A stretch of DNA of 64,000 bases from an uncultured Pelagimonas sp. (GTDB lineage Bacteria > Pseudomonadota > Alphaproteobacteria > Rhodobacterales > Rhodobacteraceae), in contig CANMIH010000003.1 of the NCBI GenBank assembly GCA_947497905.1, forward strand, positions 210,824 to 274,823, given 5' to 3'. Below are positions 17,566 through 24,280 of this stretch, piece after piece. Position numbers and translations under genes: made by a program. Under the pieces are notes generated by a model. That model did no database searches, was not told the origin of the DNA, and saw only the letters and a list, made by a program, of their open reading frames with translations. Within the stretch, counting starts at the first letter, position 1. Every line of letters begins with the position of its first letter.

Positions 17566-17640
<75 letters not shown>

Positions 17641-17888
17641 TGACTTCCCTGTCAGATGTTTTGCATTCCTAGGTCCGGTCGCCGCCAGTAGCGCACGCGC
17701 CTTACGTCGGTCCGACTGCACTAATACTCTCACGCACGAATACAAAGCTTACGAGCGCCGAGACCTGGTCTCGCCCCACGCCATTTCCATTTTGGAAAAG
17801 CATCATAGCCTTTTCTCAGATCCTGCACCCAAGCCAAAACGCGGCTCAGATCGTGTAAATCCTCAACGTAAAGATCACTGAGTGAGGT
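17641..17888. other. Intergenic region between tRNA-Thr and the large repeat-protein gene
   Basis: No supported gene. The base composition looks less GC-rich than the flanks. On the minus strand, codons 17730-17888 run open and in frame straight after the stop of the large gene (see findings), which may be a decayed gene end. Confidence 0.5.
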
Positions 17889-20800
17889 TCAAAACCACTC
17901 GATGGTATAATCGGCATCAACCCCGTGGACAGAAAGATATCTAAAATCGCTCAGCACACCTGAAAACCCCTGACCTTCGTCCACCGAAACAGACTGCGTC
18001 AAGACGCCCGTTTCGTCAAAAAAGCCCAGATTTACATGATCCTGCGCATCGTCTGCGATGCGAATGGTTATGTGCTGCGCCCGATCAAACGCCCTAAAAT
18101 CAAAGAAATCAACATCATCCACACTCACGTGCTCTGCTCTCGCGGTGCCGACGATCGCAGCATCAAGATTTCGCATTTGCAGGGCACCTTCGATGCTATC
18201 GCCCGTTCGATCAAAGTCTTTGACTTCCAGCAGAAGGGAATTTCCAGCATCGGCAATAAAAAGAGTGTTTTCCAGGATGGCGACATCCGCAGGCATGTTC
18301 AGAAGTTCACCAAAGGCATACCCACTTTCTGCACCCATCAGCGTGTGTACTTTGCCCCCCGCATCAACATATCTAACCCTGTGGTTAAATGAATCCGCAA
18401 AGTAGAGTGTTCCATCACCTTCATAGTAGGCCATACCAACCGGCGTATTCAGATAGGCGTCAGTTGCCTGGCCGAGATCTCCCGCAAATGCCCCCTGCCC
18501 TTGGTAGCTCCCCTGAATCTGAACCCCGGCATACGACACGATCCCCGCCTCTGTCGAATACTCAACGATGCGGTTGTTCCAGGAATCTGAGATAAAGATA
18601 CGGCCGGCCTCGGTCTCCAAAACGCGCAATGGCGTATTCAATTTGGCGTTATGGCCTAAGCTTGCTCCCTGAGTGCCATCCCCGGCCAAGATAGAAACGA
18701 TGCCATCCGCATCAATCATCTTGATGGTATGGTTAAAACTGTCAGCGACCAGCAGCCCGCCATCCTTAGTGGCTTGGACGTCGTAGATGGACTGGAATCG
18801 CGCCTCTGTCCGCATCCCCCCTACGCCGCTGTCTCCGCCTTCAATGCTTCCGGCAAACACCTCAGAACTTCCATTCTGGCCGAACTTCAGGATGCGATTG
18901 TTTCCTTCCACCACAAAGATATCACCAGCTGCATTTATCGACATCGCATTCGGGTAGTAGAGCGAAGACGACGGGCCGCCGCCGGAATAGTAGGAGTTCA
19001 CCCCATTTCCAGCAATCACCTCGATCCCGCTATCGGTAAACTCCAAAATGCGGGGTGATTGATTGTCCAGGGCAAAAAGCCTGCCATCGAACACTTCGAG
19101 GTCAACAATCGTATCTGATGAGCCAATCTGGGCGCCATAGTTTCCGATCAAAGTATTATCTGTCAGATCAAAGGCATACACGCGGCCAGCGTCAGAATCG
19201 GTGATCACGAGAGTGGAATCGACAACACTCATGAAGGAAACATTGGCAAACGACGTATTTAGGGCGACAGTTTCCTGGCCCCCTGTATCCGGGTTGATTT
19301 TGAGAACTGTGACATGGTCCCCGACCAGATGATGCCCCGACAAAGGATCGACGACAAGCCCACCGCCAAAGGCCGCGCCCAGTTCGAGGCTGAACACCTG
19401 CTGGCCGGTGCTGGTAAACTTTTGATAATACTTCTTTTGAGCAATCCCATCCTGGATCAGCAGATAGACGAAGTTTTCGTCGATAATTGCGTCGACCACT
19501 GTAACTTCATTGGCAAATGACGATTTATCATAATGCCAGCGGTACCAGCTTCCATCGTCACTTTGGCGAAGAACCTGTGCCCCATCCGTCAGGGTATACC
19601 CGCTGTTAAAATAGTGATCCGTAGTAACAAAGAGATTGCCGCGGTAATCCCGCCCGATATCTTGTACCTCACCAACGCTTATCAGTGCACCGTCTCTGAG
19701 AACCACCTCCCGAGAAGACTGCACCCCCCATAATGTTCTGACGTAACCTGTTTCAAAATTGAGCTCACGTATAAGATTGTTGGCCGAATCTGAAAACAGA
19801 ACTGTGCTCTGCGAATTGGCAAACAACCGCACCGGGGCGTTCAAGGTCACGTCAGATCCGACGCCTTCCTCCCCGGAATACCCCAAAGCCAAACCTCCGG
19901 CGACCCGCGTGGCGCTTCCATCTTGATACACGCGCCAGATGTTTCCACCGAGCGTATTGGTCACAAGGAAAGACCCGTCCGGTAAAAACAAGGCGTCTGA
20001 CGGGTAATTCAGATGCAAATCATCGATCGAAGCAATACGGTCGGGCTGACTCCCCAGAATGTAATCTACTCTGCGATCGTCTGAATGAACTGAAATGTCC
20101 TGCCACCCTGATTGGACGCTTTGAAAGTAATTCAGCGTACTTTGGGTCAACTCAAGCGTTTCGGGCACCGCGAACGCACGCCACGAATACTCGCCTTCAC
20201 CCACATCTATGCTCAGCGTCCCCTTCGTACTCAGGTAGCTTCCAACATTTTTAGTCACACTGTCCCGCAGCTGGACGATGTATTTCTCTGCTCCGTCATA
20301 GAAGAACGAAAAATCCAAGCTGGGATCGGCATCATCAATCGGACCAATTTCGATTGCGGCATTCGTGACAACATCAAGCCAGTCCCTCGGATCAACCACG
20401 TCGTTGCCCGCCAACGAAACAACTTGCCCCGCTTTTGAAATCAGTTCTAGGGATATCAGCGCACCATTTACGTGTGCAGATATGGTGTTCACCCCATCCT
20501 GCAGCGTGAAATTCATCAAACGACCATAGCTATAAAAGGCCTCATTGGCGGTGATCTGCGAGGTTTCCAAGCTGACGTAGAAGGGCGCGCTCACATCTAT
20601 TTTGTCGGAAAGAACAACATTCACCGAGCCATCTGGGCGCTCTTCGATGACAAACCATCCCCCCGCCTCATCGCCATAATTGGCAAGCAACACCGACACT
20701 GGATCACCCGTTTCGGACCTAAGGTGAACACGATACACACCCGCGTCGAGGCCTGACGTCTCAATCCCATCCCTATAGACCCCGGAGGTCACGATATCAC

Positions 20801-22772
20801 CTGCAAGTGTCGCAATCTCATAAAACCCATTGGGTATAACAGATGCCAAAGAGATCGTCTCACTGGGAGAAAACGGAACATCTTCCACAGCAACCACCGC
20901 GCCATTTGCAACCGTTGCTGTGAGCGTAATTTGCCCAGACGCCGCAAACCCCGTTATCGTATTCACACCTTCCGCAAGCGTGAACCGAAGCTGGTGCCCA
21001 TAGCTGTAGTAGCCCGTATTCCCTGCGCCCGTTTCGGTTTCCAGCGCCACATAAAACGGAGAGCTCACGTCGACACTGTCGGAGAGAAAGAAATCAACCG
21101 TGCCATCGGACCGCTGATCAACAAGAAACCAATCGCGGCCTCCGTCGCCTGACGGCGCAAGCAACATGGTGCGCGTTGACGATGAGCCACTGGAAAACTG
21201 AACCTGATAAAGTCCTTCATCCAAACCGGATGTTTCGATGGAGCCGAGGTAGTCGCCAGACTTCACCACCGCACCGTCAAGGGACATCACATTGAAGGTT
21301 TCGAAAGCAAAAGTTGCGGGCAACTGCACTGACTCATTGGCGCCAATCCCGAGGCCCTCAACAGCCACCAATGCACCATTTGCAACCCTCGCCGTGAGCG
21401 AAAATTTCCCAGACGCCGCAAACCCGGTAATCGTATTTACCCCCTCCGCAAGCGTAAAACGGAGCTGGCGTCCATAGCTGTAATAGCCCGTATTCCCTGC
21501 GCCCGTTTCGGTTTCCAGCGCCACATAAAACGGAGAGCTCACGTCGACGCTGTCGGAGAGAAAGAAATCAACCGTCCCATCAGACCGCTGATCAACAAGA
21601 AACCAGCCCTCTCCCCCCTCGCCAGACGGTGAAAGCAACATGGTCTGTGACGAGGCTGTGCCACTGGAAAATTGGACGTGATAAAGGCCGGGTTCCAGAC
21701 CGAATGTCTCGATGAATCCCGAGTAATCACCGGCCTTCACCACCGCACCGTCAAGGGACATCACATTGAAGGTTTCGAAAGCAAAAGTTGCGGGCAACTG
21801 CACTGACTCATTGGCGCCAATCCCGAGGCCCTCAACAGCAACCACCGCGCCATTTGCAACCGTTGCTGTGAGCGTGATTTGCCCTGACGCCGCAAACCCC
21901 GTTATCGTATTCGCACCTTCCGCAAGCGTGAACCGAAGCTGGTGCCCATAGCTGTAGTAGCCGGTATTCCCTGCGCCGGTTTCGGTTTCCAGCGCCACAT
22001 AAAACGGAGAGCTCACGTCGACGCTGTCGGAGAGAAAGAAATCAACCGTGCCATCGGACCGCTGATCAACCAGAAACCAGTCGCGGCTTCCGTCGCCTGA
22101 CGGCGCAAGCAACATGGTGCGAGAGGACGATGAGCCACTGGAAAACTGAACTTGATAAAGCCCTTCATCCAAACCGGATGTTTCGATGGAGCCGAGGTAG
22201 TCGCCAGACTTCGCCACCGCACCGTCAAGAGACATCACATTGAAGGTTTCGAAAGCAAAATTTGCGGGCAACTGCACAGTCTCGTCAGAGCCAAGCGCAA
22301 GATCCTCAACAGCCACCAATACGCCATTTGCAACCCTCGCCGTGAGCGAAAATTGCCCAGACGCCGCAAACCCGGTAATCGTATTTACCCCCTCCGCAAG
22401 CGTGAACCGAAGCTGGTGCCCATAGCTGTAGTAGCCCGTATTCCCTGCGCCGGTTTCGTTTTCCAACGCCACATAAAACGGGGAGCTCACGTCGACGCTG
22501 TCGGAGAGAAAGAAATCAACCGTCCCATCAGACCGCTGATCAACAAGAAACCAGTCCCGTCCTCCGTCGCCAGACGGGGCAAGCAACATGGTGTAGGAGG
22601 AGGTCAATCCATCGGAGAATTGGACCTGGTATAATCCGGCCCCCAACCCAGATGTCTCGATAGATCCTAGATGTTCTCTGGATTTCACCACCGCGCCATT
22701 CGGAGAGGTTATACTGTAGGTCTGGAATTTCGGGTGAACGGTCGGGAAGATACTTTCGGACGCCACAAACAC
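17889..22772 (-). CDS. Large tandem-repeat and NHL-propeller protein, uncharacterised
   Basis: About 1627 residues, not a named family. Residues about 15-645 hold four near-identical units of 158 residues (each with SIETSGLxxGLYQVQF, WFLVDQRSDGTVDFFLSDS, SSPFYVALE, GNTGYYSYG and LRFTLAEGxNTITGFAASG), then a fifth, divergent unit to about 795. All look like beta-sandwich domains. From about 880 to 1510 come NHL-type propeller blades, the last five clear (NAMSINAAGDIFVVEGNNRI, LLVADSFNHTIKMID, IFISDSWNNRIVEYS, LYFADSFNHRVRYVD, LFIADAGNSLLLEV). The final ~100 residues resemble a pre-peptidase C-terminal domain. There is no signal peptide, TM helix or RTX motif. The start is uncertain: GTG at 22772 has AGAGG eight bases upstream, and GTG at 22781 is the longest option. 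An extracellular or surface role is suggested by the domains only. Codon use and GC look lower than in the flanks. Confidence 0.75.
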   Translation of the reverse strand: MFVASESIFPTVHPKFQTYSITSPNGAVVKSREHLGSIETSGLGAGLYQVQFSDGLTSSYTMLLAPSGDGGRDWFLVDQRSDGTVDFFLSDSVDVSSPFYVALENETGAGNTGYYSYGHQLRFTLAEGVNTITGFAASGQFSLTARVANGVLVAVEDLALGSDETVQLPANFAFETFNVMSLDGAVAKSGDYLGSIETSGLDEGLYQVQFSSGSSSSRTMLLAPSGDGSRDWFLVDQRSDGTVDFFLSDSVDVSSPFYVALETETGAGNTGYYSYGHQLRFTLAEGANTITGFAASGQITLTATVANGAVVAVEGLGIGANESVQLPATFAFETFNVMSLDGAVVKAGDYSGFIETFGLEPGLYHVQFSSGTASSQTMLLSPSGEGGEGWFLVDQRSDGTVDFFLSDSVDVSSPFYVALETETGAGNTGYYSYGRQLRFTLAEGVNTITGFAASGKFSLTARVANGALVAVEGLGIGANESVQLPATFAFETFNVMSLDGAVVKSGDYLGSIETSGLDEGLYQVQFSSGSSSTRTMLLAPSGDGGRDWFLVDQRSDGTVDFFLSDSVDVSSPFYVALETETGAGNTGYYSYGHQLRFTLAEGVNTITGFAASGQITLTATVANGAVVAVEDVPFSPSETISLASVIPNGFYEIATLAGDIVTSGVYRDGIETSGLDAGVYRVHLRSETGDPVSVLLANYGDEAGGWFVIEERPDGSVNVVLSDKIDVSAPFYVSLETSQITANEAFYSYGRLMNFTLQDGVNTISAHVNGALISLELISKAGQVVSLAGNDVVDPRDWLDVVTNAAIEIGPIDDADPSLDFSFFYDGAEKYIVQLRDSVTKNVGSYLSTKGTLSIDVGEGEYSWRAFAVPETLELTQSTLNYFQSVQSGWQDISVHSDDRRVDYILGSQPDRIASIDDLHLNYPSDALFLPDGSFLVTNTLGGNIWRVYQDGSATRVAGGLALGYSGEEGVGSDVTLNAPVRLFANSQSTVLFSDSANNLIRELNFETGYVRTLWGVQSSREVVLRDGALISVGEVQDIGRDYRGNLFVTTDHYFNSGYTLTDGAQVLRQSDDGSWYRWHYDKSSFANEVTVVDAIIDENFVYLLIQDGIAQKKYYQKFTSTGQQVFSLELGAAFGGGLVVDPLSGHHLVGDHVTVLKINPDTGGQETVALNTSFANVSFMSVVDSTLVITDSDAGRVYAFDLTDNTLIGNYGAQIGSSDTIVDLEVFDGRLFALDNQSPRILEFTDSGIEVIAGNGVNSYYSGGGPSSSLYYPNAMSINAAGDIFVVEGNNRILKFGQNGSSEVFAGSIEGGDSGVGGMRTEARFQSIYDVQATKDGGLLVADSFNHTIKMIDADGIVSILAGDGTQGASLGHNAKLNTPLRVLETEAGRIFISDSWNNRIVEYSTEAGIVSYAGVQIQGSYQGQGAFAGDLGQATDAYLNTPVGMAYYEGDGTLYFADSFNHRVRYVDAGGKVHTLMGAESGYAFGELLNMPADVAILENTLFIADAGNSLLLEVKDFDRTGDSIEGALQMRNLDAAIVGTARAEHVSVDDVDFFDFRAFDRAQHITIRIADDAQDHVNLGFFDETGVLTQSVSVDEGQGFSGVLSDFRYLSVHGVDADYTIEWF
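20838..22733 (-). repeat. Four tandem 474-bp coding repeats
   Basis: Four consecutive units of exactly 474 bp (158 codons) inside the large gene, approximate limits 22733-22260, 22259-21786, 21785-21312 and 21311-20838. Long identical stretches are shared, for example the segment reading acgtcgacgctgtcggagag on the plus strand in units 1 to 3, with one base changed in unit 4. The fifth unit (20837 to about 20385) aligns only at protein level. High DNA identity points to recent duplication or gene conversion. Confidence 0.9.
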
Positions 22773-23059
22773 AGCGTGCACCTCTAAAATAACCTAAAAC
22801 AATGAAGCTCAATCAATTGCACTCTAAGATTGCTTAGATCTTTGGATTTTTCAACCATGCATATAGATTGGTTTCCTTCGACTCTTAGATACCTGCGCGC
22901 CCCTCATGCAGGTCGAACTCTGGATGTCACCCAACCGCGCGCTAATTCCCCATCTCCGGCCTCCGCAACGCGCTCTTCTGGCAAACGGCCGCATGTCTCG
23001 GACTTGCCAAACTTGCATTTCCCCCACATCCCGGCCTAAGCCTTCGCATCCCAAAGGAA

Positions 23060-24280
23060 ATGATCTCTGTGTTTGCCTACCGCGTCCTTCTCAGTCTCTT
23101 TGCAACCGTAACTTTGTTCAAAGCTGCACGCGCAGGACAGCTCGCTGCGCGAATGGGCCGAGAGACTGCACAGCCCGGCCCGCATATTTGGCTTCACGGC
23201 GCGTCAAATGGGGAACTGACATCTGTGCGCCCGGTGTTGGAACAGGTGATCGCGGACCGGCCGGATCTGAACTGGCTGATCACCACCAATACGACAACAG
23301 CCCAGACCATGGTCGACGGCTGGAACCTGCCTCAGATCAGCACGCGTCTGGCCCCTGTGGATCTAAGCTATGTTCAGTCGCGGATGATGCGGCGCTGGGA
23401 TGTGCGCGCTCATATCGCGCTCGAATCCGAGCTTTGGCCCAATCGGTTTCGCCTGTGCCCCGGCCCTGTAATTCTATTGGGTGCGCGCCTTAGCGAAAGC
23501 ACGGCCCGCGCCTGGTCGAAGCTTGGCGATCTGGCGCAACAGGCCCTCACCCCGGTGGTCTATGCATCCGCTCAAGACAGCGCCTCGCTGGCGCGATTTG
23601 ATGAGCTAGGCCTCTCCAAAGACGCCCAAGGGCCAGTTGTGGACCTCAAGTCGTTCTACAAACCACCTACTGCGACAGGTGACGGGACGGATTTCACCGA
23701 GTTCCCGCGCGGCACAACCTGGCTTGCAGCCTCGACCCATGACGGAGAAGAAGAAATTGTGCTGGCCGCGCATCTCAAGGCGTTAGAAACTCACCCCGAG
23801 TTGAAACTCATCTTGGCCCCGCGTCACCCAAACCGTGGCGATGCGATTGCCGACATGATCGAAACAGCAGGACTTCGCTTTGCACGGCGCAGCGCGGGAG
23901 AGCCGCCCGCCAATACGCAGGTCTATCTGGCCGACACACTGGGCGAGATGCATCTGTGGTACCCGCGCGCCGGGCGGGTCTATGTGGGGGGCGGTTTGAC
24001 CGACCGAGGTGGACACACGCCGTATGAACCCGCAGCCTTTGAGGCCGCGCTGATCTTTGGTGCAGACACAAAAAACTTCCGCGCCTCTTATGACCGCCTG
24101 CGCGCCGCAGATGCGGCCATTGAAGTCACCAATGTTGAAAGCCTAGCTCAGGCGCTTACAGATCTCGAACCTGTTGACGTGCAACGTGAAAAAGGGGCTT
24201 CGGCCAAAGAAGCACTCAAACAGGACGGCGATATCGGCGACCTGATCCAAAGCATCTTAAAACATCTCCCCAAGGTGTAA
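23060..24280 (+). CDS. waaA: 3-deoxy-D-manno-octulosonic acid (Kdo) transferase
   Basis: GT-B-fold glycosyltransferase of 406 residues that adds Kdo to lipid A precursor at the inner face of the cytoplasmic membrane. An N-terminal hydrophobic segment (about 4-20) is the usual membrane anchor. The family motif HGASxGE appears as HGASNGE at 46-52, with Glu52 as the catalytic base, and SELWPNRFR follows near 125. The C-terminal nucleotide-binding half shows LAPRHPNRGD and the VGGG motif (YVGGGLTDRGGHTPYEPAAF). AAAGGA is only 2 bases before this ATG, so a GTG at 23069 is a possible start. Lipopolysaccharide synthesis is therefore expected in this organism. Confidence 0.9.
   Translation: MISVFAYRVLLSLFATVTLFKAARAGQLAARMGRETAQPGPHIWLHGASNGELTSVRPVLEQVIADRPDLNWLITTNTTTAQTMVDGWNLPQISTRLAPVDLSYVQSRMMRRWDVRAHIALESELWPNRFRLCPGPVILLGARLSESTARAWSKLGDLAQQALTPVVYASAQDSASLARFDELGLSKDAQGPVVDLKSFYKPPTATGDGTDFTEFPRGTTWLAASTHDGEEEIVLAAHLKALETHPELKLILAPRHPNRGDAIADMIETAGLRFARRSAGEPPANTQVYLADTLGEMHLWYPRAGRVYVGGGLTDRGGHTPYEPAAFEAALIFGADTKNFRASYDRLRAADAAIEVTNVESLAQALTDLEPVDVQREKGASAKEALKQDGDIGDLIQSILKHLPKV

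Follow-up and report, generated by a model that had tools for sequence, protein, structure and literature searches.

A cysteine-free protein with a repeat arm and probably two nested NHL propellers next to tRNA-Thr in an uncultured Pelagimonas sp.

A stretch of 64,000 nucleotides from an uncultured Pelagimonas sp. (GenBank assembly GCA_947497905.1, contig CANMIH010000003.1, positions 210,824 to 274,823; here called the window) contains one very large gene, which codes for a protein of tandem repeat units followed by predicted NHL-type propeller blades and which we refer to as the repeat-propeller gene. Its open reading frame (ORF), 17889-22772 on the minus strand, is open throughout, comprises 1627 codons plus the stop codon and stands alone between tRNA-Thr and waaA, as a preliminary description of the sequence had stated. 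The start codon is the GTG at 22772, and a ribosome-binding-like AGAGG lies 8 nt upstream of it (22781-22785); an earlier in-frame GTG at 22781 overlaps this site, and the closest relative, P0001, has its listed start at the same residue as GTG 22772. Profile and family searches of the window protein were run from GTG 22781, and the residue numbers given here are 3 lower. A scan of positions 17600-17920 revealed neither a promoter nor a terminator. The coordinates of all features are compiled in Table 1.

The protein begins with five repeat units, the number already recognized in the preliminary description. Units 1-4 follow each other at a spacing of exactly 474 nt (158 residues) with a protein identity of 76-89%, whereas unit 5 shares 35-37% with them. 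Since dN/dS (nonsynonymous to synonymous substitution ratio) is 0.18-0.33 in all six pairs among units 1-4, these do not represent a chance repeat; the units are under purifying selection. For five sixths of its length, unit 2 shares 94-97% DNA identity with unit 4; this identity drops to 66% in the remaining sixth, which is 92% identical to unit 3. Unless the assembly mixed copies, this mosaic reads as the trace of a recombination-driven duplication. Moreover, P0001 has 1469 aa and one unit fewer than the window protein. The units can be assumed to form an arm, the length of which would shift by unit duplication and loss. Parts of the units match the models of the type IX secretion system (T9SS) sorting domain, PF18962 with 39.8 bits (cut-off 27) and TIGR04183 with 48.6 bits (cut-off 23).

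For the head of the protein, an AlphaFold model of residues 800-1627 was calculated from an alignment of 10 sequences (mean predicted local distance difference test (pLDDT) 82.9, predicted template modelling score (pTM) 0.77). It places twelve blades after an Fn3-like domain, at residues 927-1518, mostly with four strands and with three in the last blade. The NHL identity proposed earlier is confirmed by profile matches above cut-off to TEN_NHL (44.3 bits, cut-off 27.1) and NHL (41.2 bits), but instead of the single propeller described before, the model points to two. With VIA-align, NHLRC2 (6g7w) superposes on model positions 416-724, i.e., blades 7-12, with 302 residues at 2.3 A. The Pizza6 designs superpose with 234-243 residues spread over model positions about 100-721, and the permutant nv2Pizza6 (6i38) with 234 residues confined to positions 420-723; in the excerpt of PMC8458387 consulted, nv1 and nv2 are the “non-Velcro” variants of Pizza, and regular Pizza is not. 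A single 12-bladed ring was rejected on the model, because half of such a ring should not admit closed six-bladed propellers, and solved ones superpose with 234-302 residues at 2.0-2.3 A; the superpositions behind this rejection are those of the Pizza6 forms and NHLRC2, with closure of blades 1-6 presumed. The strand at residues 902-906, in which D903, Y904, and L906 are invariant in alignment A1, would in the simplest reading of the model close the last blade, with blades 1-6 inserted between as a propeller of their own. The head thus predicted probably consists of two six-bladed NHL propellers, one nested in the other. This head, the part best aligned across the family, may bind a ligand.

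Behind the propellers the model shows a small, all-beta C-terminal domain with a pLDDT <50 at residues 1537-1551. Because its alignment columns match the Roseovarius protein P0077 three times in tandem, we regard this region as a separate domain. The PPC-like C-terminus proposed before was not confirmed, as PPC (PF04151) gave no match with the window protein at E up to 1 and none with the 6 related proteins or ORFs scanned at E up to 10. The sole PF04151 match of the genome lies at the end of contig C21 (G000:C21:1-17500, L153), together with three RTX (repeats-in-toxin) ORFs and a partial HlyD-type gene below cut-off.

Table 1. Features of the repeat-propeller gene and its flanks (window positions).
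Feature	Position	Strand	Basis
Whole gene, 1627 codons + stop, GTG start	17889..22772	-	sequence
Unit 1 (residues 14-171)	22260..22733	-	repeat spacing, identity
Unit 2 (residues 172-329), mosaic of unit 4 and unit 3	21786..22259	-	repeat spacing, identity
Unit 3 (residues 330-487)	21312..21785	-	repeat spacing, identity
Unit 4 (residues 488-645)	20838..21311	-	repeat spacing, identity
Unit 5, divergent (residues 646-803)	20364..20837	-	identity to units 1-4
Fn3-like domain (residues 807-895)	20088..20354	-	predicted model
Predicted closing strand (residues 902-906)	20055..20069	-	model and alignment A1; closing role from aligned ranges
Predicted propeller 1, blades 1-6 (residues 927-1212), likely inserted	19137..19994	-	model; separate ring presumed
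Predicted propeller 2 body, blades 7-12 (residues 1215-1523)	18204..19130	-	model, structure superposition
C-terminal beta domain (residues 1525-1627), last 60 residues RTX-like in composition	17892..18200	-	model
tRNA-Thr (GGT), adjoins 3' end of the repeat-propeller gene	17566..17640	+	conserved near murA in 9/9 relatives fetched
waaA (kdotransferase), beyond 5' end of the repeat-propeller gene	23060-24280	+	

Cysteine is completely absent from the window protein and eight relatives (13,008 residues in total). The 33 other ORFs of the window have 0.88% cysteine (116 of 13,131 residues), and the only one among them without cysteine is 158 aa long; the Poisson chance of zero cysteine in the window protein, ignoring composition bias, is 6e-7. 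In twelve RTX ORFs, taken from 10 of the 12 stretches fetched, cysteine occurs 13 times in 12,564 residues, with four of the ORFs being cysteine-free, and among other NHL matches 14 out of 187 lack cysteine. Cysteine-free S-layer proteins and RTX lipases are noted in the excerpt of PMC3034196 consulted, which also places 90% of putative RTX proteins at an isoelectric point (pI) of 3.2-4.9 and their mean length near 1600 residues. The pI of the window protein is 4.19, that of the relatives 4.2-5.3. The last 60 residues contain 2 K+R and no P, a composition found in none of the 33 other window ORFs, and three of the nine members (P0004, P0005, P0078) end with FA, which is within the RTX pattern [FLI][VAI]. 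Furthermore, HlyD-type genes score over cut-off at five loci of the genome. As described before, neither a signal peptide (19-residue hydropathy maximum of 0.43 within residues 1-60) nor a transmembrane segment (highest value in the whole protein 1.37) is apparent by hydropathy. An N-terminal truncation was considered and dropped, because no member of the nine begins with a hydrophobic, leader-like stretch.

The secreted or surface role, which the preliminary description had put forward as inference, is supported by the family-wide absence of cysteine and by the C-terminal composition. We infer that a C-terminal signal directs the unfolded chain through a HlyB/HlyD/TolC-type channel, and the combination of repeat arm and conserved head is in keeping with a binding protein. 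The window protein, acidic, cysteine-free, and built of five units and two predicted NHL propellers, would accordingly in kind be a type I-exported surface or extracellular binding protein, adhesin- or lectin-like, a reading to which we give an even chance in view of the C-terminal composition, which is uneven among the relatives. Several observations weigh against it. The relatives have 0-7 K+R and 0-4 P in the C-terminal 60 residues, with 4-7 K+R in P0004-P0006 and P0078 and 4 P in P0003. The window protein itself ends with WF, outside of the RTX pattern, and in agreement with the earlier description it has no RTX motif (GGxGxD count 0, no PF00353 match). There is no HlyD match on the gene's own contig (C3), and 4 cysteines occur in the upstream ORF of a split Roseovarius copy, where they are confined to the final 23 residues, a part possibly out of frame as judged by eye. 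Moreover, the predicted model of the arm is poor (pLDDT 66.5, pTM 0.31), and the nesting is deduced from where the superposed ranges begin and end on a predicted model. Some of these points, namely the atypical end residues and the absence of export genes beside the gene, together with the lack of an N-terminal signal peptide, would also suit a scaffold of the cytoplasm or periplasm that type I secretion does not export. We consider such a scaffold clearly unlikely, as zero cysteine in all nine members together with a low pI is unusual for cytoplasmic proteins, and just a single short ORF among the others of the window is likewise cysteine-free.

A protein search gave 76 matches, of which P0001-P0006 cover 70-89% of the query with 32-90% identity to the window protein, while the other 70 cover 10-37%. 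The search with the Roseovarius protein gave 854 matches; among the 120 listed are the protein itself (P0077), P0078 with 78% covered, and 118 others at 17-52%. Over the head only, identity to the window protein is 35-92% for all relatives aligned. In a collection of 84,980 species, two peptide patterns found 116 stretches, with 42 loci encoding a relative. Two of these loci are two copies on the same contig of Roseovarius sp. ZX-A-9; the other 40 match within residues 905-1608 only, with a best-segment identity of up to 35%. A genome scan with the single protein returned no relative, and an alignment-based scan recovered them. Any match was present in nine of 394 genomes of the family, these being the own genome and eight with matches limited to 54-78 residues, and in 63 of 385 genomes of the class, where apart from the own genome no single match exceeded 227 model positions. 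Within its own 5.0-Mb genome the repeat-propeller gene is the sole match. The protein is therefore very rare in what was sampled, being present in its own genome among the 394 family genomes and in one other named species with two copies. No characterized family matched over the full length in the Pfam, NCBIfam, structure-database and protein searches, which agrees with the earlier statement that no named family is known to have such a domain order. Likewise, among the literature matches listed on NHL propellers, teneurin-like proteins, type I secretion, and Roseobacter, no title or abstract opening describes the architecture, and no literature on Roseovarius and NHL repeats was found. The preliminary interpretation was in part borne out: the lack of a known family stood and the secreted or surface role gained support; the single propeller is probably two, and the PPC label is unproven. 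It is conceivable, with a probability somewhat short of even, that the protein founds a very rare and as yet undescribed family of surface proteins that lack RTX motifs and are exported by type I secretion. In their twin-propeller head, one six-bladed NHL propeller would be inserted between the second one's closing strand and its body, and a length-variable arm of T9SS-tail-like sandwiches would carry this head.

Both Roseovarius copies are located near genes that by eye read as polysaccharide-, lipid-, and small-molecule-modifying enzymes. This would fit a cell-surface role as well as an extracellular NHL/SMP-30-type propeller enzyme (lactonase, lyase or polysaccharide-modifying), with the units being carbohydrate-binding or spacer modules. 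SGL (PF08450, cut-off 26.3 bits) indeed scores barely over cut-off in P0002 (27.4) and P0077 (30.1), but the window protein has no SGL match at E up to 1, and an enzyme has no need of the repeat arm, so that we regard this enzyme as rather unlikely. At L011 (13851-22095), beside one of the copies, ORFs read by eye as an acyl-AMP ligase, P450-like proteins, a carbamoyltransferase and an MBOAT acyltransferase, possibly a small-molecule or glycan cluster. The other copy (L010, 9475-12901) falls into two frames, with the break inside near-identical units, which is due either to a true frameshift or to an assembly error.

On the tRNA-Thr side, the repeat-propeller gene is followed by murA, DUF2948, an unnamed ORF, a GNAT acetyltransferase, and hisD; on the opposite side waaA and DUF1178 lie in reverse orientation to the gene, followed by ORFs that by eye resemble SDR and lysC. 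All 12 relatives searched have murA, and in all nine with a fetched neighborhood tRNA-Thr (GGT) is 0.3-2.5 kb away from it. In the locus comparison suggested before, none of these nine has a repeat-propeller gene at this site. Two of three relatives examined contain waaA-DUF1178-lysC, without tRNA-Thr on those stretches. A second, distant waaA match of the genome (G000:C16:64275-64904) shows 30% identity over residues 166-373, and the waaA beside the gene is 26% to 54% identical to the best copies in relatives. Past tRNA-Thr, no ORF is common to any two of the nine relatives within the first 7 kb (4 kb for one contig; E 1e-10), in a comparison of ORFs chosen by length alone, by which real genes may be missed. 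The 3' side of tRNA-Thr, in the window from 17641 onward, is different in each of them (L117-L125) and may be a variable insertion site. By eye, the first ORF past tRNA-Thr in L118 reads RTX-like and the second in L123 reads as a DNA cytosine methyltransferase. Because the relatives keep murA by tRNA-Thr but differ beyond, the gene was probably acquired. Its GC content is on the low side, in line with the preliminary description (53.0% against a mean of 57.3% for 17 window ORFs >350 codons; z -1.9, rank 3 of 18), and the codon index is lowish (z -1.7), but codon-usage distance is ordinary (z 0.05). Composition thus lends a foreign origin modest support, and the case rests on the patchy distribution. 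Neither a phage origin (no phage match) nor a plasmid origin (20 plasmid records matched, each with at most 21% of the query) could be retained, and integration at tRNA-Thr was rejected, as the 3' end of the tRNA is present only once in the window. The patchy distribution, the tRNA neighbor, the slightly low GC and the frame change in one Roseovarius copy are what would be expected of mobile-element cargo decaying beside a tRNA gene. This is very unlikely given the frame of 1627 open codons, the selection on the units, the unrepeated tRNA end, and P0001, which is open as well and 92% identical in the head.

Should the protein indeed be an exported binding protein, its adhesin-like architecture would be an addition to those known, and one that standard annotation would label wrongly, as the NCBIfam model TIGR04183 calls the protein a T9SS sorting-domain protein. 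It would further provide a clean RTX-less substrate for the study of type I export and a natural case of one NHL propeller nested within another. The cysteine-free rule across nine members is moreover a simple filter for further exported proteins of this kind.

Among known systems, T9SS proteins share the type A sorting domain (TIGR04183, PF18962) by profile. However, in T9SS it forms the C-terminal tail, whereas in the window protein it is internal, repeated and in the N-terminal half, the best TIGR04183 stretch being residues 491-534 of 1627 (window 21171-21302). A T9SS protein was excluded due to this position despite the profile match; SprA (TIGR04189) is unmatched in the genome, and likewise in 14 of 14 control genomes. 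Teneurin-like proteins (TLP; 9ifo, 9pt5) have an NHL propeller that is alike in sequence (1e-31) and fold and is also placed after an Fn-type domain and sandwich repeats. Their defining features were taken from excerpts of PMC6425310 and PMC13018210. A teneurin-type NHL propeller is indicated by TEN_NHL, but SOQ1 and NHLRC2 tie with TLP by Z. The Fn3-like domain before the propellers could, judged by its position, correspond to the FN-plug of teneurins. Different from TLP, the propeller is probably twin, and a YD shell, a self-cleaving core and a toxin domain are missing by Pfam, with RHS/YD and nuclease absent from the 5 Pfam matches (E up to 1) and about 100 residues following the propeller. 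A teneurin-like protein as such was excluded for want of YD shell and toxin, and a stripped bacterial relative that kept repeat arm, Fn domain and NHL propeller and lost both is very unlikely. NHLRC2 and SOQ1 (6g7w, 7djj) have NHL propellers that are 21-24% identical, in a different overall architecture. RTX proteins, according to excerpts of PMC3034196 and PMC8861453, are similar in size, acidity, cysteine poverty, lack of an N-terminal signal and C-terminal composition, but the window protein has no GGxGxD repeats and atypical last two residues, and was not assigned to them for lack of the repeats. BapP of Pseudoalteromonas tunicata is likewise a large marine bacterial protein with propeller and tandem beta-sandwich repeats, and in the excerpt of PMC12153261 consulted it is a biofilm adhesin by experiment with possible type I export. 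There it has a single N-terminal five-bladed propeller, a predicted Sec signal, and repeats of the Calx-beta/Big_9 type that contain calcium sites, whereas the window protein has C-terminal NHL propellers, probably two, at residues 927-1518, no signal and no Calx-beta/Big_9 Pfam match, by which a BapP relative was excluded. Nevertheless, BapP demonstrates that a propeller together with sandwich repeats can make a biofilm adhesin, and by analogy the protein of Pelagimonas may work like an adhesin as well.
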